A DNA stretch of 64,000 bases, taken from the NCBI GenBank assembly GCA_024195265.1, contig JAJLRJ010000002.1, positions 14,037,867-14,101,866 on the forward strand, in the 5' to 3' direction. Under the pieces are notes generated by a model. The model was not told the origin of the DNA, made no database searches, and was given only the letters and a program-made list of their open reading frames with translations. Source of the DNA: Dendrophyllia cribrosa (Eukaryota; Cnidaria; Anthozoa; Scleractinia; Dendrophylliidae). Of this stretch, positions 9,461-62,182 are shown one piece after another (positions within the stretch are counted from its first letter, which is position 1; each line of letters starts with the position of its first letter). Made by a program: the position numbers and the translations under genes.

Positions 9461-10392
9461 GTAGAATGGAAGATATCTTTTATGATGTGTCGGTCTTTGT
9501 TTTATTTATCGTTGTGCTGGGTTTAATGTCTGAAAAATCAACGAACTATTGCGATATCCTTTCCCAGCAGCGTTAGGTAACAAAAGTGTTTATAGGTTAT
9601 TTTATTTAGGTACCGGGCTTAAGATAGCCTGCAAAGTAAACCCTATTTTTTCTCTAAAACATTACCGTAGATGCACCGCGCGGAGTGAGGCACAAAACGC
9701 CGAAACTGGCGAGGTGAGTTTGCGCGCTAAATTACGAGCAGACCCACGAGGGGATACCTCATAGCAAGTCGAGTGAACAAAAAACGTCATGGTCTCGAAA
9801 AAAAAAACACCCCAGGTGGACACAATTTTGTAGATTATCCAGAAACATATAGTGCCAATGAAACCACTGTTCAAGATCTTTCATTTCAATGCTTGTACTT
9901 GTGGTATTTATGCACCTGATGAAGTTGAATTCACTTCCCTGACTTTCGACTCCCAAAATCAAACCGCAGTCAAGTGTGAATGGCGGGCCGGACGAAGAAA
10001 CCCCTGTACTGGGAAAGGATTCCAAAATACTCGTATCGTGGAGAATTTTGTCACGCGACGCACAATGAAATGGTAATTGACGCCGTGTTTGTATTCTGGC
10101 AACTTAAAACCGAAGCATGTTTTACGCGACAAAATGTTTCAGGATTTTTGAAGTATTTCACGCCCCCGCGCCCGCCCCGCCATTTTGAAAGCGGAGAAGA
10201 GCCTGGGGACTAGGTTGGTATTGTATTCAGAATACATTACACATCAATATACAGTGAAAAGAAAATATATACCTAATTCAATAAAGGTTGCTTTGGGCAT
10301 TGGGCGTTGAGAAGCTATTGTTTGGCGGTCACTCAAGCAAAGCATTGCATTGTGTTCCGTATTCTCTGTTTTCGAATTACCCATAATACACT
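9461..10392. other. FDPS 3' flank, no gene seen
   Basis: No supported gene. Overlapping 70-90 codon open frames on both strands (9549-10213) have no recognisable product. The stretch includes a GC-richer patch at about 9660-9770 and another at 9970-10210. It ends in the direct repeat (10380-10392) that flanks the Penelope-derived element. Confidence 0.5.
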
Positions 10393-10621
10393 GTGGTGCT
10401 GCGTCGGTGGGGGTGAAGCACAAGAATTTGGTTTTATCGACTGAGTCGATAAGGTAAATTAACCACCGTAAAAAGATTCGAGAAAGCTGACGTTTCGAGC
10501 GCTTGCCCTTCGTCGGAGCGAATCCGACGAAGGGCTAGCGCTCGAAACGTCAGCTTTCTCGAATCTATTTATGGTGGTTAATTTACCTTATCGACTCAGT
10601 CGATAAAACCAAATTCTTGTG
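10393..10621. mobile_element. Penelope-end-derived palindromic element with 13-bp target duplication
   Basis: A nearly perfect 205-bp palindrome (10418-10622) preceded by the family end GTGGTGCTGCGTCGGTGG. The unit is flanked by identical 13-bp direct repeats, CCCATAATACACT, at 10380-10392 and 10622-10634, which mark a real insertion. Each arm carries the core CCGACGA-stem-GAAACGTC (right arm 10524-10551), resembling a hammerhead ribozyme core. The same family end follows the Penelope-like C-terminal coding remnant at 55850-56184, which gives the assignment. Two head-to-head copies of the terminal region fit the inverted arrangements known for Penelope-like retroelements. Confidence 0.7.
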
Positions 10622-10634
10622 CCCATAATACACT

Positions 10635-11103
10635 TTGTATGCCCCCCAAATTTTGCATAAACTATTGTTTGTAAATGCTCTTGGGTGGACTGCATATTCC
10701 CATATTGTATTATGGGCAATTCGAAAATAGAGAATGCCCAACTCTTGGTTTTCACGTGACGTCATCAAATTCGAAAATCATAAATTGTAATGCCTTCTGA
10801 ATTTGTATGTCCACCAGGTTGAAGATGACTTAAATCTTTTCACAAGTATCCAACCCGGTAGCGTCTTTCGTTTTGAAAATACAGCATTTTGAATTTCTGA
10901 CTTTTCACCCTACGTGACACCAACATGGCGTCCGTGACAAAGCTTTTTCCTATGAAACAAGGGCCTCTCCTCGTGATTTTTGGCACTTTGGGCAGTTAAA
11001 GTATTAGGAATGCAGTTTATGCGAATGAATAGTAGTTCACGAGAGAAAAGTAATCGCTTTCAGAGCGAAAGTGAAGTCCAGATGTTTTTATTGATTTCCG
11101 GCG
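10635..11103. other. Intergenic, nothing recognised
   Basis: Unique-looking sequence between the Penelope-derived palindrome and the 11.1-kb palindrome. It includes a CACGTGACGTCATC word at about 10754-10767 (CRE-like). No coding exon or repeat family recognised. Confidence 0.4.
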
Positions 11104-16830: not shown

Positions 16831-17727
16831 ATGAATTACTAAGGCATGGGAAATGGATTACTAAGGCAAAAGGCCTTAGTTATCCATTTCCCGGTGTTTT
16901 TTGCCCGTTTTCCATACTTTTCTTGCCAAGAGAAGCAATTTTCTACAGCCCACTTCAAAAGATTTTCTTCCGAAAGGTCCAAAAGGAGGCCTGGTCACTC
17001 GGCGCGAGACACGCGTTTCGTTTCTTTCGACAGCACTCATCGTTGTTCACTCGAGGCGTTTCATCATGCCCAAAGGAAACCCTTTTTTGGTCAAAATTAG
17101 CTCGCTGTCAGCTGTTGTAAAAAAGAGAAAAAGTAAAAAGCGTTCGGGTTTTCTTGGAACACCCAAATGGGAAAAAGACAAGGAAAGAAAACAATAGAAA
17201 TCCACGAGTGAAATCACTTCTGTCTCAATCTCTTCTCCTTGCCGAGAACGGAACGACCAATCCGGCATATCATACAAGAAAGGACGGCGTTCGTTAAAAG
17301 ATATACTCGTGAGAGCAAAACTATAAAAACGGCTTAAACACGAACGTGGGCATCACAAGCCAGGGAATCGATTTTATTGCACGCATGAGGGACCATCAGT
17401 CGCCTTGAATATTCACGCGTTTGAGTTAGTTTTCACACTTTGCGGGGGATTAGACAAATTTCGAAACCACGGGAAAGAATGATCTTGCTGCGCATCTTTC
17501 TCGCTGTTTAGCAATGACTTTATCGGTGTTTATTATGTTTAATAGATAGACTTACGCCTAAGCACTTGCTTTTAATTCGACCAAAGAAAAAACACAAATC
17601 ATTCTATGGCTGTCGGTCTACATGTATGGATATAGGACAGCAGTAGAGATCCCAAAATTGAAATACTTATTTAGCTTTCAATCGGCGTGGAGAACTCGAA
17701 ATAATCAAGAGATTACTTCCTAAAGAA
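16831..17727. other. Intergenic with a hairpin and an unassigned open frame
   Basis: A hairpin at about 16848-16890 has GGGAAATGGATTACTAAGGC facing its near-exact inverse around a short loop. From 16901 to 17197 a 98-codon frame ends in a Lys/Arg-rich tail (KKRKSKKRSGFLGTPKW). It might be an exon of an unrecognised nuclear protein or a transposon relic, but there is no domain and no splice support, so I list it here rather than as a gene. Confidence 0.4.
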
Positions 17728-17885
17728 ACTGTGGTGCTGCGTCGGTGGGGAATAAAACAGGAAAGTTCCGTATTATTAACTGAGTTGATAAGGTAAATTG
17801 GCCACCATAAGAGACTCAATTCGTTCAGTGACGAAAGGCCGCGAAGGCGCTCGAAATATCAGCTTTTGATTATCTTTACTAAGGT
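17728..17885 (+). mobile_element. Diverged Penelope-end repeat
   Basis: Starts with GTGGTGCTGCGTCGGTGGGG, the same 20-base end as the element at 10393. It continues through degenerate forms of the internal words (TAAGGTAAATTGGCCACC; TGACGAAAGG; GGCGCTCGAAATATCAGC). Single orientation, no palindrome; the hammerhead-like core is eroded (GAAATATC in place of GAAACGTC). Confidence 0.65.
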
Positions 17886-20800
17886 GGCCCAAAAATTTCC
17901 AAATAGCATTCGGCTCGTGTTTCTATAGCTATCATAACTTTATATGCAGACGAACTGAAACTGAATAAATCTTATGCATTCTATATTTTGCTCGATGCCA
18001 TGACTTGATTTCAAAACATGACTAATTATAAAATAACGTATTGGTTACGAAAATGGGCTTATTTAATGTTTTCTTGAAAAAAAAAAGGACATGAAATAAA
18101 GATGAGTGCCCTATACAGTAAATACGCAGTGTTATAAAAAGACACCATCAGAAAAAAAATAAATGATAATTCAATTTCAATTTGTAATTTGTATATGCAT
18201 AATTTAAAGTTTGGTTTAACTGGTGTTTTAAATAATTATTATAAATGAAAGTCAACGTGTTGTCACGAATACACGCTGATGTCGAGAGGTAACACTCCAC
18301 AACAAAGTAAACGCATTGCTTCCATGAGAAGTTAGCTTAATTTTTTTCTAGGGAAAGCTAGCGTTTGCGGTGCCGTTTCTCATTCGTATCTCACTTTAAA
18401 GGTAAGGTCCTTGCTTTCTTGGGACTTTTTATTTGAATTCACTAAAAGGTGAATCACGCTACCAAGCCGGTCCAATTTGTCACTGCACGGGGAAATATGC
18501 CTTACTTAATAGGACAGTCTCTGGCACACCTCGAAGATTCTTGGCAAAGGGCTTTTAAACAGAAAGTTAACATCATAGAGTAAACGGTACTTAAAGTGAA
18601 AGTTCTGCATCTTCTCAAGCACGTTTTGGCTTCGCTTAAATTCGCTAAAATCACTTGTCGCAAAAATTAAAGATCAGCTCCAACGATTTTGCTGAAACTT
18701 AGTAAGGGTATATATTAAGTCAAAAAGTGGGGTTCATCAATCTCGATTATTACTAAAAAGATTTGTTCCCAGTTAAATCGAATTATATCATTTTATTGCC
18801 AAATAATAGCTGTCAGTTTTCGCAAAGTACAGGGCCGGATGTATGAAATAGGAACAGCTTTCCGTGTTTGAAGTTATGGTTACAAGAGGAAATTTAGGAG
18901 AACGACAAATAGTCAGACAAACACGAGCCGAAGGCTATTTTGAAATCTTTTGGCATTATTACATTATTATTCCAATATGTTGTGAGCGTGGACTAAAATT
19001 TATTTTAGGAGAGGTAACGTATTTGGACAGATAAACGATTTCAAGGTAAAGACATAGACCTAAGGTAAATTCCCGGTTCTTATCGGCGTTCTTATCGATA
19101 CTCATCAAGCCATCCCGCATCAAATCGCATGCAAAACACTATGAATAGGCTAATTTCGATATATTAAAATCCAGGTAAAATTCTAACTTGACTTAGACTC
19201 CTAGGCTTAGGGGAATAAAACGAAATAAATTAGTTATTCATCTCTGAACTTCAATGTTATTTCTTACTTTTCAATTGATATTTTCATCATTTCTTCATTA
19301 GCTTCTTCTGTTAGCTTATAAATTGCAAGGAGCAGTGCTGTATTTAAATATGCTGAACTTCAGTTGTTAAGCTAGACACCATCCCATGATTGGCTCTTTG
19401 GCCCTTAGTCATAGTGAGTAGTCTCCCTCATCTTCTCCGTCGGGTCCTTTGGACAGCACAGGTCAAGGTGCTATTTGTACCGTCCATCTCAGGGACGGGC
19501 AGAGGGACTTGAGACAGTGACTTCACCCAAAATTTAAAACGGAAAGTATATTCAAAATCACTACTATCATTATCATTTTGATTTGTACCGTCCATGTAGT
19601 CGGGCAGGGGGACTTGAGACAGTAACTTCACCCAACTGATTCAAAAGGGACAGCACATTCCAAATCACTACTAAGGGTGCTTTTTATCATATGAGTCCTC
19701 TTCCCATGAGTCCTTCAATATAAACTGGGAAACTTTAAATATTCGTCTTTGAGTTATCCGTCCTAATTCGTAGACAAATTATTCGTCTGACGAACAATTC
19801 CTCTTGACAGATAATTTGTCTCTAGTATAAATTGGAGCATTAAATAACAGAAAGGGGTTCTGTCTTGGTGTACGAGTTCATAAGGGATTTCACATTGTAT
19901 ATTCCCGTTTGTTTTTAAAAGGTATTGTGTCCGCCGTAGTCTATTGTTTAGTCTACCAAGAAAGGTGTAGCAAAATTCAAATAACATTGATAAATGTATT
20001 TTTGACGGCCGTGAACCGCCCCTCAACATTGTTTATTCTTATGCATATTATATTAGACTGCTTTAGTGTCTCTTTCAGGGTTTGCATCAGCTGCAATGAC
20101 AAATCCTGAGGCATTTTTTTCGCAGCTTTCGCAGCAGGAAAAGATACTATATGCTTCTTTCGTTAAAGAAGCTTCCAAAACAAATTTATTTTACAAAATA
20201 TTAGTTGTTTCCGAAGTTACATACAGTTGATTGCCCTCAGCTGATCGGACATATTGCACAACTTGGGGTAGCGGAAAAAAAGCCAAGACAATGTAAAGAA
20301 TGTTTTTTAATCTTTTAATTTGCCGCCGACTTTATAAGTTATGCAAGACGGTGTTCGCGGTTCTTGGCTGTACACAGAATTGTTTTACTGCAGTAAGCAA
20401 AACTTAGTGTCTTCCAAGTATACAGTCGCCCTTTGATTTCTTGGGAGAATCTCTTTTTTAGTCGAGCCGCTTTCTTATTGCTATAGATGATCGAGTCTTT
20501 TATTCTCTTAATAATATCATGCGATAAACCTTGTTGACACAAATATTGAACTTGTGATTATTTTGATGGTTTTTCAGCCAACTGTTATGTTTTCAGTAAA
20601 TGGTTTCCACTCAGTATTCCTTAATTTCTTATTTTTCTTAAGCCGTGATAATTGCAATTCCGTGATAATGGACAACATTTTAATAACTTGATTTTGTTTG
20701 TTGGTTGCCAGAGTAAAATGCTTGATTAACCAAGGGCGGCAAAAATTCAAGACTCATTTGCATTCACTTCACAGTGAAGTGTTGCGTTTGAAGTTCATCT

Positions 20801-22767
20801 TGAGGCAGTTCAAAGGGTCAGTTTGCGTTTCTTCCAAAGTTGAAGTTAACTGTAGGAGAAGGTAGGTGCTTTAAAGTTACCGTATCTACTGTATTATATA
20901 ATACGCTTTAGTCGGCCTGTGTAAAACTTTCATTTACGCTTTTCTATGTATGGCTTGCATTAATTTGTAAACCTTCCACAATCGAACCATTTCAGTACGA
21001 ATTTCGCTATGGCGCGCATGCAAGGCCGGCTAACTGTTTACGAGCCAAATCAACTGAATCAAGCCTTACCTAAACGTTTATTAATTCAATTTTCCCGATA
21101 TAGCTGACAACGAACAAAATGACGAATAAACATCCGAAATGCCTCCATAAAAACGGTCTGCTGTTCATGCGCATTCTAGCGAGAAACAATATTGAGTCAA
21201 TATTCTATGAAAATCGGTCGAAGTCACGTTTAAATCCTACTAAGACTGTCATTGACGTTGTCCGCAAATTTCATCCATAACTCACGAACAGCAGACATTT
21301 ATTCCGAGCAAGGCAATATTAAGCCCAGGAAGAAATAAATATCACATTGGTGTAGAAAGACTCAACATTCATTAAACCAGCCGCTATTTTGCATTCTGCC
21401 CCTTTTGCCGACAGACAAACAGGAAGAAGAACGGGCCAATCCTTGTCGAGGTCACCACAAAATCCCAAATTTCGTTTGCAAGATATTGAACACTACCCAG
21501 TTTTAAATGGTCGCACTTTATAAAGATTTCATCAATATACGGCTTATTATTTTTTAAGATTCAAGGTACACAGTAAACGCCCGCGGCGACAATATTTAGA
21601 AAGAGCTTGGAATCCTTTCATTGCATGCAAGTGCAAAACTGTACTAGCCTAACTAGCCGCTCAGCTATAGACACAGGAATTGAACCTGGAAATTGACTGC
21701 GAGACGGCGGGACAATCATTTCCCCGGGGGAGGTACTCCTTTATCTAGCTTTAACGGAGACGTCTTTTCATGGCCCCTCAAAAAGATGTTAACTGTTTAA
21801 GATGCTAAAGTAACAACCACGACAAATAATTCAAACACAATTCTGCATTCAACGCTGCAAATGCGGTACAGATGGCTTACCAACATGAATCTCGAGTACG
21901 ATTGAAATTATAATGCACGAAACTTTTAGTCTCAAAAGGCGTTGATCCGTGACATCTTTGCCTTTTTGTATAATTAGGCCTGGTTTACAATGTAAACATC
22001 GTACTCCACATGAGCATAGCAGAACCTAGTTTACCGCATGAATCCATTCGGAACAGCTTACCGTATCCTAAATTCGGATCGGCTCAGCTTTCAATGATTC
22101 AGACGCCGAATTTGACTTGAGCTGAATCAAATTAAGTTTGACGCCTGAATAAATTCAGCCTGGATTAATTAATTTGGGTCGACCTGTAGAGATCGTCTTG
22201 ATCAACATATCCGACATATCTTGGCTAAGAATCCTGGACAATACAGGTCTACATCAGAGTCTTTTACTTTTTTAAAACAATATTGTCAGAACTAGAACTG
22301 GATGATGTCATTCAATACTAGGGGCCCCATTATATGAGCCGGACAGCGGGGTAGGGGAGGGGGCGACTATACACAGGCTTAATTTAGCATCAACTGTTTT
22401 AGCTCAAAGTTGTTGCTTTGAAAATTGCGGCAAAGCGTAGAATCTTTTAATTGATGATTTTTTCAGTATATTAGCTCATTTTCTTCGTGCTTTTATAACT
22501 ACTACGCAGTCTTGTATACCTTTTTGTTATTTAGAAAGAAAAATGACAATTTACAGGTGAGAAGGTTTGCTCTAGGGTGTTTAACGTACCGCCTGCCGGA
22601 GATTTCAGCAAAACCCCAGCTGCCGCGGCCATGTGCCACGAAGCTCTTTGGAATCTCTAATTTTATTGGCCCTGGGTAACACGAAGCTCTATTGTTTCAA
22701 GGGCTAGGGTCCATTCTTCTGTTGTTTGTTGTGAATTCATATCATTGGTTTTAATTTGTTTATAGAA
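17886..22767. other. Long intergenic region upstream of the first transporter
   Basis: Almost 5 kb with no open frame above about 90 codons and no recognisable exon. Apart from the 19.5-kb tandem repeat, only fragments of dispersed repeats appear, for example a truncated G-run element near 21720 and a repeat end with GGGGGCGACTATACACAGGC near 22360. The transporter promoter should lie in the last kilobase, but no TATA box or initiator could be assigned with confidence. Confidence 0.45.
19469..19650. repeat. Two-copy tandem repeat, ~115-bp period
   Basis: TTTGTACCGTCCAT ... GGGACTTGAGACAGT ... ACTTCACCCAA occurs at about 19468-19530 and again at about 19581-19640, followed in both cases by related sequence containing CAAATCACTACTA or CAAAATCACTACTA. 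Confidence 0.75.
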
Positions 22768-25700
22768 ATGGCTTTGACCGCTGATCAAGTGTTTGACAAA
22801 ATCGGCAGCTTTGGCCGCTATCAGTTTTTAGTACTCATCATGTTCAACATCTTCGAATGGTTTTGGGCTGGATGGCCCGTGTTACTGATGACGTTTATTG
22901 CAGCTGAACCAAGTTGGCGCTGCGTCAGTAACCAAGGTAACAGTAGCCTTGGCAACAGTAGCGTTGGTAACAGTGCCGAGTGTCCTTTTAGTGGAAAAAT
23001 GTCACCCGGAAGCACAAATTACAACTTCCGCTGTAATATTTCTAGAGAGTCGTGGGAATTTGTGGATGATTTCACCTCCGTTGTGACACAGGTAAGTTAT
23101 ACACTAATATCATAGTATCACTGTTGCCTTTGTTTTTGTTGGTGGCCGAACTGTCGCGGGCGGTCAGCGGCGATTCGGGTGACGGCGCGGGTTTTAGAAA
23201 GAATGCGAAACAGCTCCGTTTTGTAAACAATGTTAACAAACGATAATTTCTCAAAATTCACTCATTAAAATTTCATGAAATTTGTCAGAATTCTTATTTG
23301 TATCGCATTTCGATTAATGAGAACTTTAAAACAGAAGTCGGTGACACCATCAATATTGACTGGGCAGCTATGTTCTTGGATATTTAAAAAACCGTTTGTT
23401 AAAATTTGGTAGAGCCAATTTTAAACAATAAGAATTATTTTAAAATGTAAACCGTGTGCAGGTTCATGAGAAAATCTAATGACTGGATTTTATGTTAACC
23501 TTAAAAAAGTGAAATTTTAGGGTTGTTTTTTACCAACCACGTTGCCATGGAAACAGACAAAGCGCAAATTTTAGCCGTTAATTAATTCCACTATTTTTCT
23601 TAGTCAAGTTTCAGCTTCTAAGCTGCAACCTTTCTCACATAATGCCATTGCGAATGACATATACTCACAACCTATCAAAAATGTGTTCGGCCATCTTAAG
23701 CTGAATAGAAAACTAAAACAAACAAAACCAACAAGCAGAACCAAAGATTCCCATAGATGAGTAGTGTGGCTTCCGAGTGGACTTTATCTTTCAAAATATA
23801 ATAAATGGAAAATAAATGTTTATTGGCAAAACAAGTAGTTTTAGCCCGAAATTATTGAGTGGTTCGAATGTAAGCAGAAATATCAACACCGGCCTGTGAT
23901 TCCTTTTTTTAATTGCAGTTTGATCTTGTTTGCGATAAAGCTGTCTACGGAACAGTTTCTTCATCTCTCATTTTTGTTGGCTGGATCGTGGGAGCTCTCA
24001 CTGTTGGATCACTGGCTGACAAATTTGGACGAAAGATCATGGTCTTCGCATTTGGCCTGCTTAACGCCGTCTTTAGCCTTTTGTCAGGGTTTGCGAATGT
24101 GTACTGGCTGTTTGCACTGTTTCGATTCATTGTTGGGTTTTCGATAGGTATGTATAACAGCAAAAGAGTCACGATATCCCCGCAGTATGGCCAATACCTA
24201 TCACATGGGTAGCGTGCAGTTGGCGCTTAATGGGGTGATCGCACACGCCGCGATAGTCAGAAGGCACCTGAACACGGCTTTCGAGTCGTACAGGAGTCCG
24301 ACGGCAATGCTATGCTGAAGAGTCCAACCAATAACGAAACAGTTGTCCATGGCTGCTCGGGTAATAATTAACAACTATTCACCTCAGTGGAGGTGGGTAG
24401 TGGTGGATATTTAACGAGCCGCAAATATATTTGCATATTAAAATCCAAGTCTTGTTTTGTTTACATAAAATCGCTTTTCAACTTATGTAATAAATGAACA
24501 AACACATAAAAATGGACAATACAATCTTCTTTCGAAAAAATTTTTATTCAAATCTCCATAAGTTTATGTTTAAAAGCAAAACGCGAACCTTTTATAACGC
24601 ATCGAGGCCGAGCTGTCTTCGATGAAAGAAATCAAAACACGTTTTATAAACAATTCTCCAAAACCAGCGAAAACACAAAGAAAAAGTCAATCACAGATTG
24701 ATATCAACATAAATTCCCATCGAAAAATTATTTTGTTTTACCTTTAAGTCCCTCTACTGCTTGGAAATTCTTTAAATCTCCGCTTCTTCAGTTCTGAAAC
24801 CCGAAGTGACAATGCTCCCACATTGATAAAAACGTATGAAGTTCCTCGAAGCAAGATTTTATCCCTGAAAGTTCTTCTTTTTTCCCTATAGCGGCTTCTG
24901 AGTATCCCTTAAAGTGCCTATCACCCCTAGAAAGTTATTTTCAGAATCATCTCTATGTACATTAAATAGTTGAATGGTAAAATATTTCTTGTTTTGAACG
25001 TCGCGTTTGTGAGTTATAGAGATTTGAATTTACAAAATGCTAATTAGATGACGTCAACCCGGGAATTTGCCATTATTTCTACGCCAATTTACAATGCGCA
25101 ATTTACAGCTTGAAGATAATTAATTTGATAAATACTAAGAATAAACTGTGGATAGTCAACTGATTGGTAAAAAATATTACTTGGAGGTGAAAACAAGTTG
25201 TTGTATAATAAATGATTCCCGGGTTGACGTCATCTAATTAGCATTTTATAAAATCAAATCTCGGTAACTCACTAACACGACGTTCAAAACAAGAAATATT
25301 TTACCATTCAACTATTCAATGTACATAGAGTTAATACTGAAAATAGCTTTCTAGGGGTGATAGGCACTTTAATTAGTATCCCAGTCTTGAGTAGCAAAGC
25401 GCGAAACAATGCAGGAAAATAACGACTTGTGTTTTCCCAGCTGACGTGACATTCGGCCGTGTAACCGCGCAAAAAACAAAGCCTCGCTTTGGTTTTAAAA
25501 TTGCTAAGATCCCGGATGGTGCGTGACGTCATACGCGCCCGCGAGCTAGTCCTGCCCAACGGCGGGCGGCGAGCACACGACGCGCCCGCGAAACATTCCG
25601 CTAGCCATGACCGTGAATGCTCCGCTAATAACGGGTGATATGGCTGTGCGCATGCGTATGGTATTGGGAATGCCACGGAGATTTGTCGTGTGATCATTGC

Positions 25701-37768: not shown

Positions 37769-37959
37769 ATAGGCCATTTCCGAGTTGCCTTTAGCCTCTC
37801 TATCAAAGCGAGGCTAGGTGCGAAACCTTTCATATGAAAATGAGATTTCATTCACATGCAAATAAGTTGCATGTGAATGAAAACTCATTTTCATATGAAA
37901 GGTTTCGCACCTAGTCTCGCTTTGATAGAGAGGCTAAAGGCAACTCGGAAATGGCCTAT
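37769..37959. repeat. Near-perfect 191-bp palindrome
   Basis: Arms ATAGGCCATTTCCGAGTTGC, TTTGATAGAGAGGCTAAAGG and their inverses, extending to the centre CATGCAAATAAGTTGCATG. Arms are about 92 bp with few mismatches. Upstream (37495-37710) matches 54640-54790 downstream of transporter copy 2, but the palindrome is absent there, so it inserted after the duplication. Confidence 0.85.
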
Positions 37960-39255: not shown

Positions 39256-39375
39256 GTTATTGACCAGGAGCGAGGGGATATGCGATATATTCCCCTCGTG
39301 GTGTACCCGAGGGCGTAGCCCGAGGGAACGCCACGAGGGGAATATATCACATATCCCCGAGGGACAGGTCAATAA
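39256..39375. repeat. 120-bp palindrome rich in GAGGGGAATAT
   Basis: GTTATTGACC and its inverse GGTCAATAAC at the outside; inner words CGAGGGGATATG, TATATTCCCCTCGTGG and CCCGAGGGC pair with the other arm. The same GAGGGGAATAT word is repeated in tandem 600 bp downstream. Confidence 0.8.
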
Positions 39376-44465: not shown

Positions 44466-44647
44466 TTAGTTTAAAATAATTTCAAAACGTTAGCTGATAT
44501 ATCTGATATATCATGTTTTCATGATTATGGCCAGAAGCTTTCTTTAAGCTTTCTTTATTGCCTTGAAATGTGAAGAGCAACGGTGAAGTTATATAAATAT
44601 ATATTTTTATTTCTCTATTCAAGTTTTTGCAGTCACTACCCGCAGAA

Positions 44648-47600
44648 ATGGCTTTGACCGCCGACCAAGTCTTTAATAAAATCGGCAGTTTTGGTCGCTA
44701 TCAGCTTTTAGTACTCATCATGTTCAACATCCTCGAATGGTTTTGGGCTGGATGGCCCGCGTTACTTATGACGTTTATTGCAGCTGAACCAAATTGGCGG
44801 TGCGTCAATAACCAAGGTAACAGTAGCCTTGGCAACAGTAGCCTTGATAACAGTAACGAGTGTCCTTTTAGTGGAACAATGTCACCTGGAAGCAACAACT
44901 ATACCTATCGCTGTAAAATTTCTAGAGAGTCGTGGGAATTCGTGGATGATTTCACTTCCGTTGTGACACAGGTAAGTTAGATCAAGTTAATATTAGTACT
45001 GCCTTTGTTTTTATCCCATACACTTGTGTCAGTTAAACTTCATCAAGTAATCTTTAGCTGATGAATGGAAAACTAAAACAAACAAGACCAACAAACAAAA
45101 CCAATTACACACACTGATAAGAGGTACCAGATCAGTAAAAATCTGTATGCATCTCTCTCTTAAGACCTAAGGCAGGCAACAGACTACCTTGTTCGCTTTT
45201 AAGTTGGTTGCACCACACGCGAGGAAACATGCTAGGACTTCACTAAATCACGTATTTTTGGCGCTCACAAGAAATCTTCGCGTGTGATCCAAAACAAGTA
45301 GCTATATAGTGTAAGGTGACCCGAAATCATAGAGTGGTTTGACTGTAAACAGAAATTATATGAATACTTCTGATTCCTTTTCTTTATTGCAGTTTGATCT
45401 TGTTTGCGATAAAGCTGTCTACGGAACAGTTTCTTCGTCTCTCATTTTTGTTGGCTGGATCGTGGGAGCTCTCGTTGTTGGATCACTGGCTGATAAATTT
45501 GGACGAAAGATCATGGTCTTCGCATTTGGCCTGCTTAATGCCGTCTTCAGCCTTTTGTCGGCGTTTGCAAATGTGTACTGGCTGTTTGCACTGTTTCGTT
45601 TTATTGTTGGGTTTTCGATAGGTATGTATAACACCAATAGGGTAGATATGTTAAATTATCACTTCATTGGGGAATTCGCATGACAGCCGACTAATAAAAT
45701 TGTGTTATTTGAACGACAAAATAATAGTTGGACAGGCTCACAGCGTAAACAATGCGCCGTCTGCCACTGAATGTGCGCAATCAAGAAAAACGCAGTGAAG
45801 GTGCTTTGACGGTCGCAGAGCTAAAGCCTGAGCTGGTTTCCATATAATCGCAACGATCGCAACGATCGACGATCGCTGCGATTCTTACGATCCTTGCGAT
45901 CGCTGAGACCTCAGGTTTCCATATGATCGCAGCGATCGCAAGGAAACGTCGAGTAGGTCTGGATCCGATAAACTTTAAGTGTATTATGGGATACAAGGCT
46001 TTGATGTGCAATGCTTTCTGGGACATTTTGGATCGCAAGGATCACAAGAGTGGTTTCTACATAAAAACCTCTCGATCGCAAGGATCGCAAGGATCGCAGA
46101 GATAGAAATTTTTCTATCTCTGCGATCGCAATCGCAAGGATCGCAAGGATCGTAACGATCGCAAGGATCGCAAAGTTTTCTGCGATCGCTGCGATCCTTG
46201 TGATTATATGGAAACCAAGCTTAAAGAAGGTCGATTTGCATTGGATCAACTGGGTACAACTGGATCGCTTTCCAGTTGAGATTGAATCCCTGTCCAAGGG
46301 GCGTCATGCTCTACGTGCCAGTCATATTGCGAGCCTTGATCCACAGTTGATAGATGGAGTCCTGCGTGTTTGCCAGCGGTCATTTGAAATTGAGACTATA
46401 CCCTTTCAATAGACCTCTTTTAGCTTGTATGTTTTGTTTTCCCAATGTAGGTCATGTGATGTTCTCAAGGGAATTTATTTTTGTCTTTTCATAAATTATG
46501 CATACATATGCACGTGAAGAAAACAAAATTTAAAAGAAACAGTTCTCTAGGGTAACATCACGTGATCTACATGGAGAAAACAAAACAGACAAGCTATAAA
46601 GAAAGCAGAGAGAATAGGTTTGCATGATTTAAACCTTTCATTGCCAGGCAAACCTCGATTTCAATGTGCTTCAGAATTTGCGGGCGCGCGAAATCTAGAG
46701 TGTGGCGATTTAAATAACGAAGCTACTGACCTTTAATTATCTGTGGTATTCAACATTTTGCAAAATTAAGTTTGGTACTTTCACAGTCTTTATTATTGAA
46801 GCTACTGGCAATAAAAGGCTTAAAGAAGTCTTTGAACACTTCCCCTCGTGATACCCACAGTACGTGCATCCCGCCCCCAGGCGAAATGTGACTGAAGACA
46901 TAACGATCTTTCTCATCTTGACTGAACTAAAGTTTGGCAGTTATAGGACGCCGTGTATACCATTGGGCATTCAGATGAGGCTGTTTCATGGGGATGTTCC
47001 CGTTTTATAGGTCCAAACTGTGCTAAGATGTAAAGAAACTATATAGATTTTATTTTAAGCTAAATGCTCCTAGAAGACCAAGGGAACTATATCAGGTGAA
47101 TTCTGGAATGGAAAACAAACCATTGTTAATTTTTAGCGATTTTTTTTTTTCAAAACAGAAACAAGAAGATCTAAGTGAAAAATTAACCCAATTTCTTCAA
47201 GTTGCAATTCGTTTCCATCTCGGCGATCTATAGCCAAAGACACTTATTAATATTTTCAGTGCACTAGTATTGTAATTTCAAGCAAACGTGAACCACAAAA
47301 CTGGGTGATATAGCCTCGTTAACTAGCAAGGATTATGGGGAACAGCCCCAAGAAATTTTTATAGTTAGGATTTTTAAGGTAACCTATAAGTTGGTCTGAC
47401 TTGTCTTTTGCCAGATTTCTCCTGCATTGTTTTAATTATTATTAATAGCGTGCTCACTTTCTTGGCTAATTATTTTTTCAGGCGGCGGGTTCATATGTAT
47501 GTTTGTTCTTCTCGCTGAACTTGTGGGTCCTCGACACCGAAGTCTTGTGGGAAGTTCCTTTTGGTACTGCTGGACCTTGTCCCTCATAGCTTTGGCGGGA

Positions 47601-55440: not shown

Positions 55441-55849
55441 TTACGTATTTTGGGCCAAAACGCGAATAAAACTTTTAGGAAAAGGTATTTTGTTTTTCTC
55501 TTCTCCGTTGCGTTCTTTGCCCCTACTCCCACACCTCATTCATTTGGAAGTAAATCCAGCCCCGGCGAGAGAGATGCTGTTAGCAGTAATCTGTTATGAA
55601 AAGATGCAAGCAACTCCGACCCGCCTGAAATATCGTGTTTTCATGAATATTACCAGGAGCGTGTTCTAAGGCGGGGTTTTTCCTGAATTTGAATGAAATT
55701 TTAAGAGGTTTAAAGAAGGGATAGAAGAAAGAAAGTGATTTTTACAACACCAACTTACAGTAATTAATGACACCCACGCAAGAGCACCCCAACCCAAGTT
55801 GATAGTGGACTATATTAGTGTTATTACACACAGAGTTGATTCTCTGATT

Positions 55850-56184
55850 CCTTGATTCTAAACAACACATGACGATCTGCGGCCTTCACCAACACCAGGG
55901 TAACAAAGAAAGCCGTAAAAACTTGGAACAAAAACTAATCCGAATCGGCACTTTCAAACCTCTCGAAATCAACGAACGTTTTTCATTCAACTAATTTAGA
56001 TTTGTTTTTCACGTCACCAAATTTCCACCAAAAGCGTAGCTCCACCGCTTACTATGTAAAGCCACACACCACCCACAATTCCTTGATTCGCTCCGACGAA
56101 GGGCTAGCGCTCGAAACGTTAGCTTTCTCGAATCTTTATACGGTGGCTAATTTACCTTATCGACTCCCACCGACACAGCACCAC
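55850..56184 (+). mobile_element. Penelope-like retroelement 3' end
   Basis: From about 55856 to a stop at 55992-55994 the frame reads ...HMTICGLHQHQGNKESRK, then NLEQKLIRIGTF and INERFSFN. This pattern of Arg-Lys, Glu, Leu-Ile, Gly-Thr and Asn is what I expect at the C-terminus of the GIY-YIG endonuclease domain of Penelope-like elements. The following 190 bp contain the hammerhead-like core and close with the family end CACCGACACAGCACCAC, the inverse of the end at 10393. 5' truncated. Confidence 0.65.
56085..56134 (+). ncRNA. Hammerhead-ribozyme-like core in Penelope terminal region
   Basis: CCGACGA (56093-56099) stands for the CUGANGA box, helix II is GGGC/GCTC (56101-56104 with 56109-56112), then GAAAC (56113-56117) and GTT (56118-56120). 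Helix I can form from GCT/AGC (56090-56092 with 56121-56123) and, after a bulge, GATTC/GAATC (56085-56089 with 56130-56134). The invariant U4 is C here and the cleavage triplet is GTT; copy 10524-10551 has GTC but lacks this helix I. Hammerheads in Penelope-like elements are established; activity of this copy is doubtful. Confidence 0.4.
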
Positions 56185-56360
56185 AGTTTCTCTAGAAAAT
56201 CTAGGCTAAAAACAATATCGCCAGACGCGCTCGCTACCAACGCGAAAGTTAAATGTTAACTTTTTATGGCACTTCCAAGGGAAATTAAAAAAAATCAGTT
56301 CGCGAGGTGTCATCTTAGTATTGGCAAAGTTCTGACCGTTCAGGAAAAGAATGCTCCGTT

Positions 56361-59738: not shown

Positions 59739-61174
59739 GTAATTTTGCTAATGCAATTTAAAGGAACCCTAACCGAGGACCACAATACCAAAATGGACAC
59801 CCGTTTTTAGGACTAAGCGCCTCAAAAACCATGCCTCATCCGCGGCACATACCTATATAACGTATAGGTATATCCCCCGCGGTTCCGTTTCAGCGTGGGC
59901 CAATTTGCCAGGTATGGTATCCTCACAATCTAAATATGCTACGGCTGAGAGCCAGGCCGGGTTCCCTAATTGAGAATCTCGTGCACGTGCACGTGCATGC
60001 TGGTCGCTTTTGATGTGTTCTGCCACGTGTTCTGAACTGACCTCATGTTCAAATATAATTAAGACTTGTCGAGGAAGACCGCGATTTGCAAACAGTAAAA
60101 GTTTGTGGATAAGCCAACAAAAGAAAAACATCGTTTGAGACTTCTGTCACAACTGAGAGTTCTAGTGAATCAGGGATTTATCTCGAAGCTTTTCACTTTA
60201 AATTTGTCTTCAAGTTTTATGGGTGCTCTTGAAGCGTTTTTCTCAGAAAAAAACTGTGATCAATGACTATCTTTTGGGCTTCACTCCAGCTTGTGGCTTA
60301 TTACACGGACGGTAGAAGACGCTTAAGTGGTATTTTATTGCTAAGATACTGAGTAACGTTATCCATTCAAATCCGATATGAGTTTTTACCGAATAAGTTA
60401 ATATCACAGCAGTGCCATGAAAGGGTTTGTTCTTAATTGTATAGAAAAAAGAAATATTAATAATACTGTTTTTACTAATAAACGGTAAAAAAGATCTCTT
60501 ATATAGATGTTATTGAACTAGCGTGAGGTCCGAATTGGGGAAATATTACGTGTTGCCCCCCCTTCTTGGGATATGATTTTACATCGTGCTCCCCCTACCG
60601 TTTCTCAACCCCCCTTCCTGCTTGAATATTGCACAGTCCCAGGAGCCCATTACTTATGGGCTCCTGACAGTCCCTAACCAAAATTGTCCGCTTAACATGA
60701 GGAAAATGTTTCTACTTAATAGAAAACAGTTTTCAATTGTTCATCGTTTCATAAAAGGAATTTGGCGAAATGAGTTTGTGAGCGGTCCATCTTAGCGGTC
60801 CGTATTGCAAAATTCGGACCGCTCAGGGAACCAATCAGAATGTTCCTTTTCATCGTGGACCAGCTTGCCATATAATAAATGATTATTCTGCCCATCTCTT
60901 TTGAAGTTCTGAAACGAATGGGCTTTGTTAAGTATCTAGGAGAGCTTATATTATATTTAGACGAGAAAGCGTCAGTACGCACACCTGTAGTTTCCCGATA
61001 TTCTATCCCCCAACTTTTTTACTGTTTTGAAAAGGCGATCAATTCTTAATGGAGCGCACCTCAATAATTAAGTACTTAATATAACAATATTTGCATGCAA
61101 TCAGCCTCATACAAGAAGGAAGCGAAACTTTCTATCTTTTGTTAAGATTTTCCTTATTTAAATAACAACTTCAA
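59739..61174. other. Spacer upstream of the GPCR, two hairpins, no gene
   Basis: Perfect hairpins at 60640-60666 (CAGGAGCCCAT and inverse) and 60794-60823 (AGCGGTCCG and inverse). The CACGTGCACGTGCATG run at about 59980-60000 contains two E-box-like CACGTG words. No exon recognised. The GPCR promoter must lie here, but no core element could be fixed. Confidence 0.45.
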
Positions 61175-62182
61175 ATGGACAGGAATTCAAGCATCAAGTG
61201 GAGAAATAATTCTGCTTTGCTGACCGCCTTCAACCCAACAGGCGGCGTGGTTTGGTGCAGTGCTTTTGCTCTAGTTTCGTTCTTCATCGTTTCAGGAAAC
61301 TTACTTGCAATCGTAGCGTTTGCTTTGAACAAGAAACTCCGAAAGAAGAGTTTTCTTTTGGTCATAAATATGGCGTTCGCGGATTTAATGTTAGGAGCTG
61401 TGTCTCTGCCATTGTTTATTTACCGGCTTGGAGGCAATTTTGAGCTTTGGAACGTGGGCTGGGGTTTCTCCTTGGAAATGTTATATCTTGTTGTGGACAC
61501 AATGTGCGCTCAGTCTTCAATAATAACTGCTGCTTTTATTGCTGTAGAGAGGTTTTATTCAATAGGGTGGCCACTGAAACACCGATCTATCGCCAGAAGA
61601 CGCGCATATTACACCTTAATTAGTTTGGTCTGGATTTTCGCCGTAGTCATTTCAGCGGCAATCATTGGCTGCCTGTACCAGTCAGTTCGCATATCGATCT
61701 ATATTTGGGTGACATACGCGGCTACCTTGACGCTAATAATAAGCGGTTGTTATATCGGTATTTGGACAAAATATAAACGAGGGAGAAACCTATTACGAAT
61801 CCAGAACAGGGGAATATCAAAGAGTAAACAATCAACAAAGACTCTTTTGATAATAACTTTTGTGGTTCTGCTATCATGGCTTCCTCTAATTATAACTAAC
61901 GCTATTTCAGTTTACATTCCAGTGAACTACGACATCTTCCTTTTTGTAAATTTGCTAAACTTCAGCAACTCTTTTGCAAATCCTGTAATTTATTCGTTAA
62001 GAATCCCAGAATTTAGAAAAGCGTTGTTTTCCAGTGCGAGATCCATCGGAAAACCTTCCGTGGCTCGTCTTGCGGCCACTTCCACGAAAATTCAATTACA
62101 GGTGACCTTGAAACATGAAGTCGACCTAAAAGCCTTTTTTCAGGAGAAAAACAAGGAGGAGATCATTGAAACTGAAACATAA
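61175..62182 (+). CDS. Class A (rhodopsin-like) G protein-coupled receptor, intronless
   Basis: A 335-residue, single-exon receptor. TM1 about 24-50 with GN (41-42); TM2 60-83 with FADL (D70 = the conserved D2.50); TM3 98-125 ending ERF (125-127) in place of DRY; TM4 145-167; TM5 172-198; TM6 221-245 with SWLP (234-237) in place of CWxP; TM7 253-275 with NPVIY (269-273); helix 8 RIPEFRKALF. N-glycosylation sequons at N4 and N11. The Cys expected at the top of TM3 (3.25) is absent (residue 101 region reads EMLYL), so the usual TM3-ECL2 disulfide is missing, as in some adenosine/melanocortin-type receptors. Ligand unknown. The ATG at 61175 gives a short N-terminus; no upstream in-frame alternative. 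AATAAA at 62488. Many cnidarian class A receptors are intronless, so this is not necessarily a retrocopy. Confidence 0.93.
   Translation: MDRNSSIKWRNNSALLTAFNPTGGVVWCSAFALVSFFIVSGNLLAIVAFALNKKLRKKSFLLVINMAFADLMLGAVSLPLFIYRLGGNFELWNVGWGFSLEMLYLVVDTMCAQSSIITAAFIAVERFYSIGWPLKHRSIARRRAYYTLISLVWIFAVVISAAIIGCLYQSVRISIYIWVTYAATLTLIISGCYIGIWTKYKRGRNLLRIQNRGISKSKQSTKTLLIITFVVLLSWLPLIITNAISVYIPVNYDIFLFVNLLNFSNSFANPVIYSLRIPEFRKALFSSARSIGKPSVARLAATSTKIQLQVTLKHEVDLKAFFQEKNKEEIIETET

Follow-up and report, generated by a model that had tools for sequence, protein, structure and literature searches.

The window analysed here, the whole stretch of 64,000 nucleotides of Dendrophyllia cribrosa DNA, carries at 10393-10621 a near-palindrome that we interpret as the insertion of a Penelope-like element (PLE) without its coding body, produced most likely by two-sided target-primed reverse transcription. 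We estimate the probability of this reading at about three in four. Short insertions in which two Penelope ends stand head to head between target duplications constitute a numerous class in this genome (36 independent sites), as an earlier sequence-only reading of the window had anticipated.

A palindromic insertion in the window

The near-palindrome consists of two arms of 100 nt (10418-10517 and 10523-10622) that are 97% complementary and separated by a 5-nt spacer. A BLAST self-match of the unit extends over 205 bp at 94.6%, which agrees with the palindrome of 205 bp first described from the letters of the window. About 25 nt at the left end (10393-10417) have no pairing partner in the right arm. 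The clean 13-bp duplication previously reported was also recovered, as the two flanks are identical; the expectation for one exact 13-bp match by chance at the local base composition is ∼3e-8. Element-like sequence overlaps this duplication by at most 3 nt (ACT) at the left end and by 1 nt at the right end. The target itself is a MITE-like inverted repeat, the right arm of which constitutes an uninterrupted paralogous empty site with a single CCCATAATACA, as seen against the computationally joined flanks of the insertion. The window unit is therefore an insertion with a true duplication. A second exact CCCATAATACACTT was noted at 45977-46003 on the minus strand, outside the target repeat. The coordinates of all features are listed in Table 1.

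Table 1. Features of the window that belong to the palindromic unit, its target and related PLE sequences
Feature	Positions	Strand	Description
Target, MITE-like inverted repeat	10361..10735		arms ~10361-10390 / 10706-10735, 93%
Target-site duplication, left copy	10380..10392		CCCATAATACACT; final 3 nt also element-like
Left arm, antisense PLE 5' leader / pLTR end	10393..10524	-	GTGGTG at 10393 inward to ribozyme position -8; 10393-10417 is the one-sided tail
Hammerhead-derived segment, left arm	10475..10524	-	both stem I strands and stem II, stem III absent, core CCGACGA / GAAACGTC
Centre junction	10523..10524		TC common to both arms, a 2-nt microhomology
Right arm, sense copy, tail-less	10523..10621	+	PLE 5' leader, from about -1 to the proximal start (TTCTTGTG)
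Hammerhead-derived segment, right arm	10524..10565	+	stem I without its 5' strand
Target-site duplication, right copy	10622..10634		13 bp
Older asymmetric head-to-head pair, family of the window copy	17716..17890		left arm with tail, without ribozyme part; right arm with ribozyme part
C-terminal PLE reading-frame remnant	55848..55994	+	48 codons, 76% identical to P0001
pLTR end downstream of the coding remnant	56085..56187	+	internal deletion after GACTC

Several other features of the window were recorded. A second near-perfect palindrome of ∼147 bp (37791-37937) is unrelated to the PLE arms and is probably a foldback element, and an imperfect GC-rich palindrome with 34/40 in its core lies at about 39272-39360. 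Two similar short ORFs containing MALTADQVF (22735-23115 and 44597-44980) are likely tandem paralogues, which we take to resemble the N-termini of transporters. An open frame for a rhodopsin-family GPCR (61166-62182, plus strand; 7tm_1, 100 bits) has its nearest named counterparts, among the relatives listed, in Oculina (66%) and Acropora (63%), followed by Stylophora (56%); the named coral relatives include proteins annotated as adenosine receptor A3-like.

Family identity of the arms

The family end occurs twice more in the window, at 17728 and, after a coding remnant, at 56 kb (56187), as previously stated. At 17728 an end is indeed present; the place, previously described as having this end, is itself a second head-to-head pair, for which a target duplication was looked for and not found. 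The 48-codon remnant gave no match in Pfam. The end encoded at 55848-55994 also lies within the longer ORF of locus L070, which matches GIY-YIG (PF01541, 22.2 bits for a cut-off of 22.6, E 1.8e-4), and the ORF of L052 matches RVT_1 (18.5 bits for a cut-off of 29.6, E 1.8e-3); both matches are sub-threshold and concern broken frames read from stop to stop. The C-terminus of the family ORF is presumably of PLE type. Judged from these sequences, the arms derive from the ends of Penelope-like elements, with weak matches to the GIY-YIG and RT domains in the longer copies, and the proposed relation of the family end to Penelope elements is borne out at the level of these sub-threshold matches.

In five loci (L068, L052, L070, L065 and L049), a longer sequence separates the tail from the inverted arm, and the duplications measure 13-16 bp. 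In L072, an internal deletion fuses the outer arm directly to coding-end sequence, and this locus was consequently counted as a longer copy. A pattern search for relatives returned none in viral or prokaryote contigs. A protein-based search returned none in viral contigs and 35 pattern matches in prokaryote contigs, 0 of which were confirmed. Relatives were likewise absent from phage records and from solved structures, and strings of the family sequence were not found in paper texts.

The ribozyme-derived segment

The canonical hammerhead core is CUGANGA. Both window arms have CCGACGA instead, with a C at what we take to be the expected U4 position. CCGACG is present in 72 of the 99 arms with an intact stem II among the loci read, and CTGACG is absent from the 12 commonest core strings, which cover 91 of these 99 arms. 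In the minus-strand reading of the left arm and in the 56-kb copy, stems I and II are complete; stem I is broken in the right arm. Thus, of the hammerhead-like core attributed to each arm, stems I and II persist in the left arm, the 5' strand of stem I is missing from the right arm, and the core sequence departs from the canonical one. The proposed check with a covariance model had a negative outcome: Rfam gave no hammerhead at the 10393 unit, at 17728 or at the 56-kb copy (whole window with E up to 5, short stretches with E up to 10). On the window element it returned only sub-threshold matches, the best being to microRNA models, which suit a palindrome. The arms can be called ribozyme-derived by descent, but without a match in Rfam and with half of stem I missing from one of them. 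According to the accessible parts of two reports, PLE hammerheads are minimal and lack helix III (PMC7761336, PMC6155905). A transcript of the window unit is predicted to form a single long hairpin (-181 and -173 kcal/mol), and any ribozyme fold would face competition from it. Elsewhere in the window, a sub-threshold match to Hammerhead_1 (24309-24353, plus strand; 24.9 bits for a cut-off of 34) could represent a remnant of a coral retrozyme.

Genome-wide copies and their duplications

The 229-bp unit was searched in the D. cribrosa genome (627 Mb), and the best 40 of 1298 first-look candidates were scored. All 40 places contain a body-less head-to-head unit with most of the unit matched, 4 of them without the first 14 nt, and the copies read present an inverted pLTR with an optional one-sided tail. 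L009/L010 and L027/L032/L041/L042 have one centre and one flank per set and look like duplicated segments, because their right flanks match too. L010, L032, L041 and L042 were dropped for flanks in common with other copies, leaving 36 independent sites; L022 and L033, with similar target repeats and different junctions, were both kept.

The search for the unit and its flanking duplications that had been suggested earlier thus gave a positive result: at 40/40 scored places, 36 of them independent, the duplication scores above the 95% point of a control of 120 mismatched pairs, which may include duplicated segments. The duplications are mismatch-free in 33/40 and mostly 11-15 bp long, although only 6/40 score above the control maximum of 14 and at several loci (L014, L035, L047) they are short or of low complexity. 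Measured by hand in 33 copies (L014, L018, L024 and the four duplicates being left aside), their length ranges from 9 to 16 bp. Six further palindromes (L058, L062, L063, L066, L076 and L080) were added, 5 of which have a mismatch-free duplication, that of L080 being weak.

A palindrome associated with a target duplication is also what a foldback DNA transposon or MITE would leave. This explanation is highly improbable, since the duplication length varies from 9 to 16 bp, the one-sided tail means that the ends are not mutual inverted repeats, and the ancestry of the arms lies in PLE ends, which are found next to RT/GIY-YIG frames as well. Palindromes are furthermore prone to post-insertion rearrangement and to assembly artefacts. 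Such an origin is scarcely credible here, given that duplications border whole units at 36 independent sites with different flanks and with the same outer and inner stops repeated. Neither the window copy nor any of the 40 scored units has the coding body; they are therefore insertions made by a PLE rather than PLE copies able to move alone.

The outer ends fall in two narrow zones

With a script, the right outer ends were placed at TTC to TTGTGCTT, within 9 nt, in 31 of the 36 independent copies. Four of the others (L017, L025, L035 and L047) were mis-anchored by the script and have the same right end by eye; L039 is truly shorter. The left outer ends lie 23-36 nt beyond CACCAC in 34/36 copies, the exceptions being the window copy (3 nt) and L013 (12 nt). 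The left tail of the window copy, only 3 nt beyond CACCAC, is thus unusually short. Each outer end is that of a maximal match, and a few of its nucleotides may be common to element and target. Long left ends running into the ORF were considered and ruled out, as left ends stop within about 35 nt.

With the cleavage site of the ribozyme at offset 28 (numbered as below), right ends lie ∼65-73 nt and left ends ∼119-132 nt after cleavage. The two outer zones are roughly 50 nt apart, and 25 nt apart in the window copy. Stem-loop stability at the start sites was analysed, and none was found (z about -0.8). Two right ends, those of L039 and L063, are off the proximal site. L063 is palindromic and has a perfect 14-bp duplication, but the end of its right arm (ACGGT) lies far inside the zone of the usual starts; it represents a rare third start. 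In L061 and L075, two short single-arm copies, an extra ATTC or GATTC immediately precedes the duplication where the inner junction is formed, about 90-100 nt inward from GTGGTG. Template slippage is a possible source of these extra bases.

The inner ends accumulate upstream of the ribozyme core

Inner ends were numbered from the first C of CCGACGA, taken as 0. The 36 independent copies together with the six further palindromes form a set of 42, in which 40 left and 39 right inner ends fall within -9 to +10. They pile up against -8, 8 nt before the ribozyme core, which is the mode for both arms (12 left, 9 right); L036 may pass it, to -13.

Because this first sample had been chosen by similarity to a unit centred at the very spot of the pile-up, we used a centre-blind query made of the tail and outer arm. 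The best 40 of 1151 places were scored and all were read, 39 remaining without the duplicate L010. Of their left ends, 14 lie in -9 to +10 (20 nt), 3 in -60 to -10 (51 nt) and 3 in 11 to 60 (50 nt), and 19 reach further upstream. A second centre-blind query with a variant arm (best 40 of 1277 scored) returned 13 places already known and 27 new ones, 7 of which were read. With these seven loci (n = 46) the same bins hold 14, 5 and 4 left ends, and 23 loci reach >60 nt further upstream. Addition of the 5 known loci of the second query that were new to the sample, and removal of L085 (n = 50), gives 19, 4, 4 and 23; palindromes are favoured in this last set, since all 20 unread places had been missed by the first query. 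In the 12 centre-blind loci with the right arm in reach, 11 left and 10 right ends fall in -9 to +10. L083 and L085 share an end at -10 and the sequence that follows it, as members of a duplicated segment or of a chimeric family would.

Nothing here suggests that the ribozyme drives insertion. The arms cross the cleavage site to 36 nt upstream, so the usual template was most likely not cut by the ribozyme. Only in L080 does an inner end fit a cleaved template exactly, at 28, the first base after the cleavage site.

Centre junctions differ from copy to copy

In the window copy, the left arm extends to -8 and the right arm starts from -1, the two being joined over TC. A first parse of the junctions covered 34/40 copies, and positions for L012, L013, L014, L020, L036 and L037 differ by some nucleotides between two parses. 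Among the 42 independent copies we counted 33 distinct centre junctions. Since the junctions vary from copy to copy, the palindromes were formed anew at most sites, which runs against the earlier suggestion that the hairpin can itself be inserted.

According to that suggestion, a non-autonomous hairpin moves as a unit, which would agree with the many copies of one size that have duplications. In addition, 7 junction types are each found at 2-3 sites whose flanks differ (16 copies in total, the type of the window copy recurring at L012), and these may represent short lines of unit copying. However, in 6 of the 7 recurring types, including that of the window copy and L012, at least one member has a variant present in both of its arms and absent from the other members; the type L031/L044/L047 offers no such deciding variant. 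These variants point to separate origins, and it is simpler to assume that such junctions formed separately at favoured microhomologies. Where centre and flank are both the same, the sets look like duplicated segments. Together with the diversity of the junctions, this makes movement of the hairpin as a unit very unlikely.

Relation between the two arms

A different route to a palindrome is self-priming (snap-back), whereby a left-primed cDNA reaches the 5' end of the RNA, folds back and copies itself to give the right arm. In the accessible part of a report on rotifer PLEs, palindromic junctions are explained in this way, with an antisense template (PMC3846280). Self-priming would account for the perfect symmetry of the arms in many copies, and in the window copy TC could fold back on GA around a 5-nt loop. 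It also fits the 25 of 42 copies in which the left arm is the deeper one by at least 3 nt; the two arms are within 2 nt of each other in 6 copies, and the right arm is deeper in 11. The last count was left at 11 with L062 entered under a misaligned right end (41), whose true value of -8 would make it the twelfth. However, the right arms of these 11 copies hold template sequence that the left arm lacks, while only the left arm has the outer tail, and neither arm can therefore be a simple copy of the other. Moreover, L019 joins -8 to -8 with no loop, and in L049 the long arm is the right one, running at least about 100 nt past -8, whereas the left arm is short and tailed. Finally, the fixed start site of the right ends, found also in copies with longer bodies, is not predicted by self-priming.

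Variants common to both arms of one copy were observed 24 times in 36 copies, when 3.6 ± 1.7 were expected (0/5000 permutations). Six of them are found in no other arm of the set, four of these in the right-deeper copies L026, L030, L033 and L035. We read such variants as a sign that reverse transcription took place twice, on one RNA or on sister RNAs of a single locus. They can equally be explained by one arm copying the other, so that private variants count in favour of self-priming as well, or by later conversion between the arms. Overall, we regard self-priming as an unlikely origin of the window unit; it could survive for a subset of copies, or if hairpin loops were opened and trimmed unevenly.

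A two-sided priming model

In the reading that we prefer, two-sided target-primed reverse transcription, the PLE endonuclease would cut the two strands at staggered positions and leave 3' overhangs of about 13 nt, as the duplications suggest. Each overhang end would prime reverse transcription within the 5' part of the PLE RNA, one side starting distally, which would leave the tail, and the other proximally, giving the tail-less arm. The template may be a single RNA or sister RNAs. Each cDNA would proceed to the 5' end of the RNA, which the pile-up would place 8 nt upstream of the ribozyme core, near GATTCGCT, and would then run off or stop just short of it. The cDNA 3' ends would be joined through 0-4 nt of microhomology or with up to about 13 extra bases, and a palindrome would result. 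With a longer read-through RNA, the same process would yield a body flanked by inverted pLTRs.

Extended to the family, we consider it fairly probable that PLEs prime on both ends of a staggered break and make two copies of the 5' leader, from a single RNA or from sister RNAs. The second priming would then have left the inverted pLTR as its trace, a separate initiation of the second strand would be unneeded, and monomeric mRNAs would give palindromes without a body, since the starts of reverse transcription would lie only about 100-170 nt from the 5' end of the RNA. Two-sided priming would further account for the inverted pLTR already described in Penelope elements. As a source of inverted PLE ends it was not found in the open-access literature searched. 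In LINE-1 twin priming, two primings on one RNA produce an inverted segment with a duplication; the second site is there arbitrary on the RNA, whereas here both starts lie in fixed zones of the 5' leader.

Comparison with known systems

Inverted pLTRs, one-sided tails and target duplications are described for PLEs in the available portions of PMC3846280 and PMC8969392. Like the coral units, Adineta vaga Pen2a and the Penelope elements of Drosophila and fish have an inverted pLTR and an optional tail, but the elements presented in the consulted sections keep a body or captured DNA, whereas the coral units are body-less in many copies (PMC3846280). The purified PLE protein of Anolis (Poseidon_Ac, PAc) cleaves and extends both strands in vitro, reverse transcription starts from two internal sites and ribozyme cleavage is dispensable in vitro, as far as the accessible text reports (PMC11167929). 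In the use of both strands, in two internal starts that define the tail and in a minimal hammerhead upstream, PAc matches what is proposed here for the coral family, and it lends that proposal independent biochemical support. The accessible text draws no link to inverted pLTRs, the word 'inverted' there referring to a blocking dT only. The layout of the starts is alike but not identical in the excerpts compared: the PAc tail is 30-40 bp, for zones roughly 50 nt apart in the coral and 25 nt in the window copy, and within the PAc ORF the main start lies at 111-118 nt and the cleavage site at 26 nt, so that this start follows the cleavage site by 85-92 nt, compared with the two coral zones given above (PMC11167929).

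Stony corals also harbour non-LTR retrozymes, small non-autonomous ribozyme-bearing retroelements to which the units described here are comparable. In the part of the report available, retrozymes have canonical type I hammerheads, repeats of about 225-245 bp and a circular RNA, whereas the Dendrophyllia units have head-to-head arms and a minimal altered core (PMC7229834).

How PLE insertion is completed, and how the inverted pLTR arises, is a matter on which the rotifer paper of 2013, in its accessible part, favours self-priming while leaving the question undecided (PMC3846280), and for which the in vitro paper of 2024, in the text available, does not validate the later insertion steps (PMC11167929). 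The coral data speak against self-priming as the only route, unlike the reading offered in the accessible part of the former. No product is simpler than a palindrome without a body, and its junctions are therefore open to base-by-base reading in any genome. In D. cribrosa these junctions point to two-sided priming, mark the likely 5' end of the RNA and suggest that the usual template is not cut by the ribozyme. Body-less PLE insertions would moreover supply animal genomes with short, nearly perfect hairpins.
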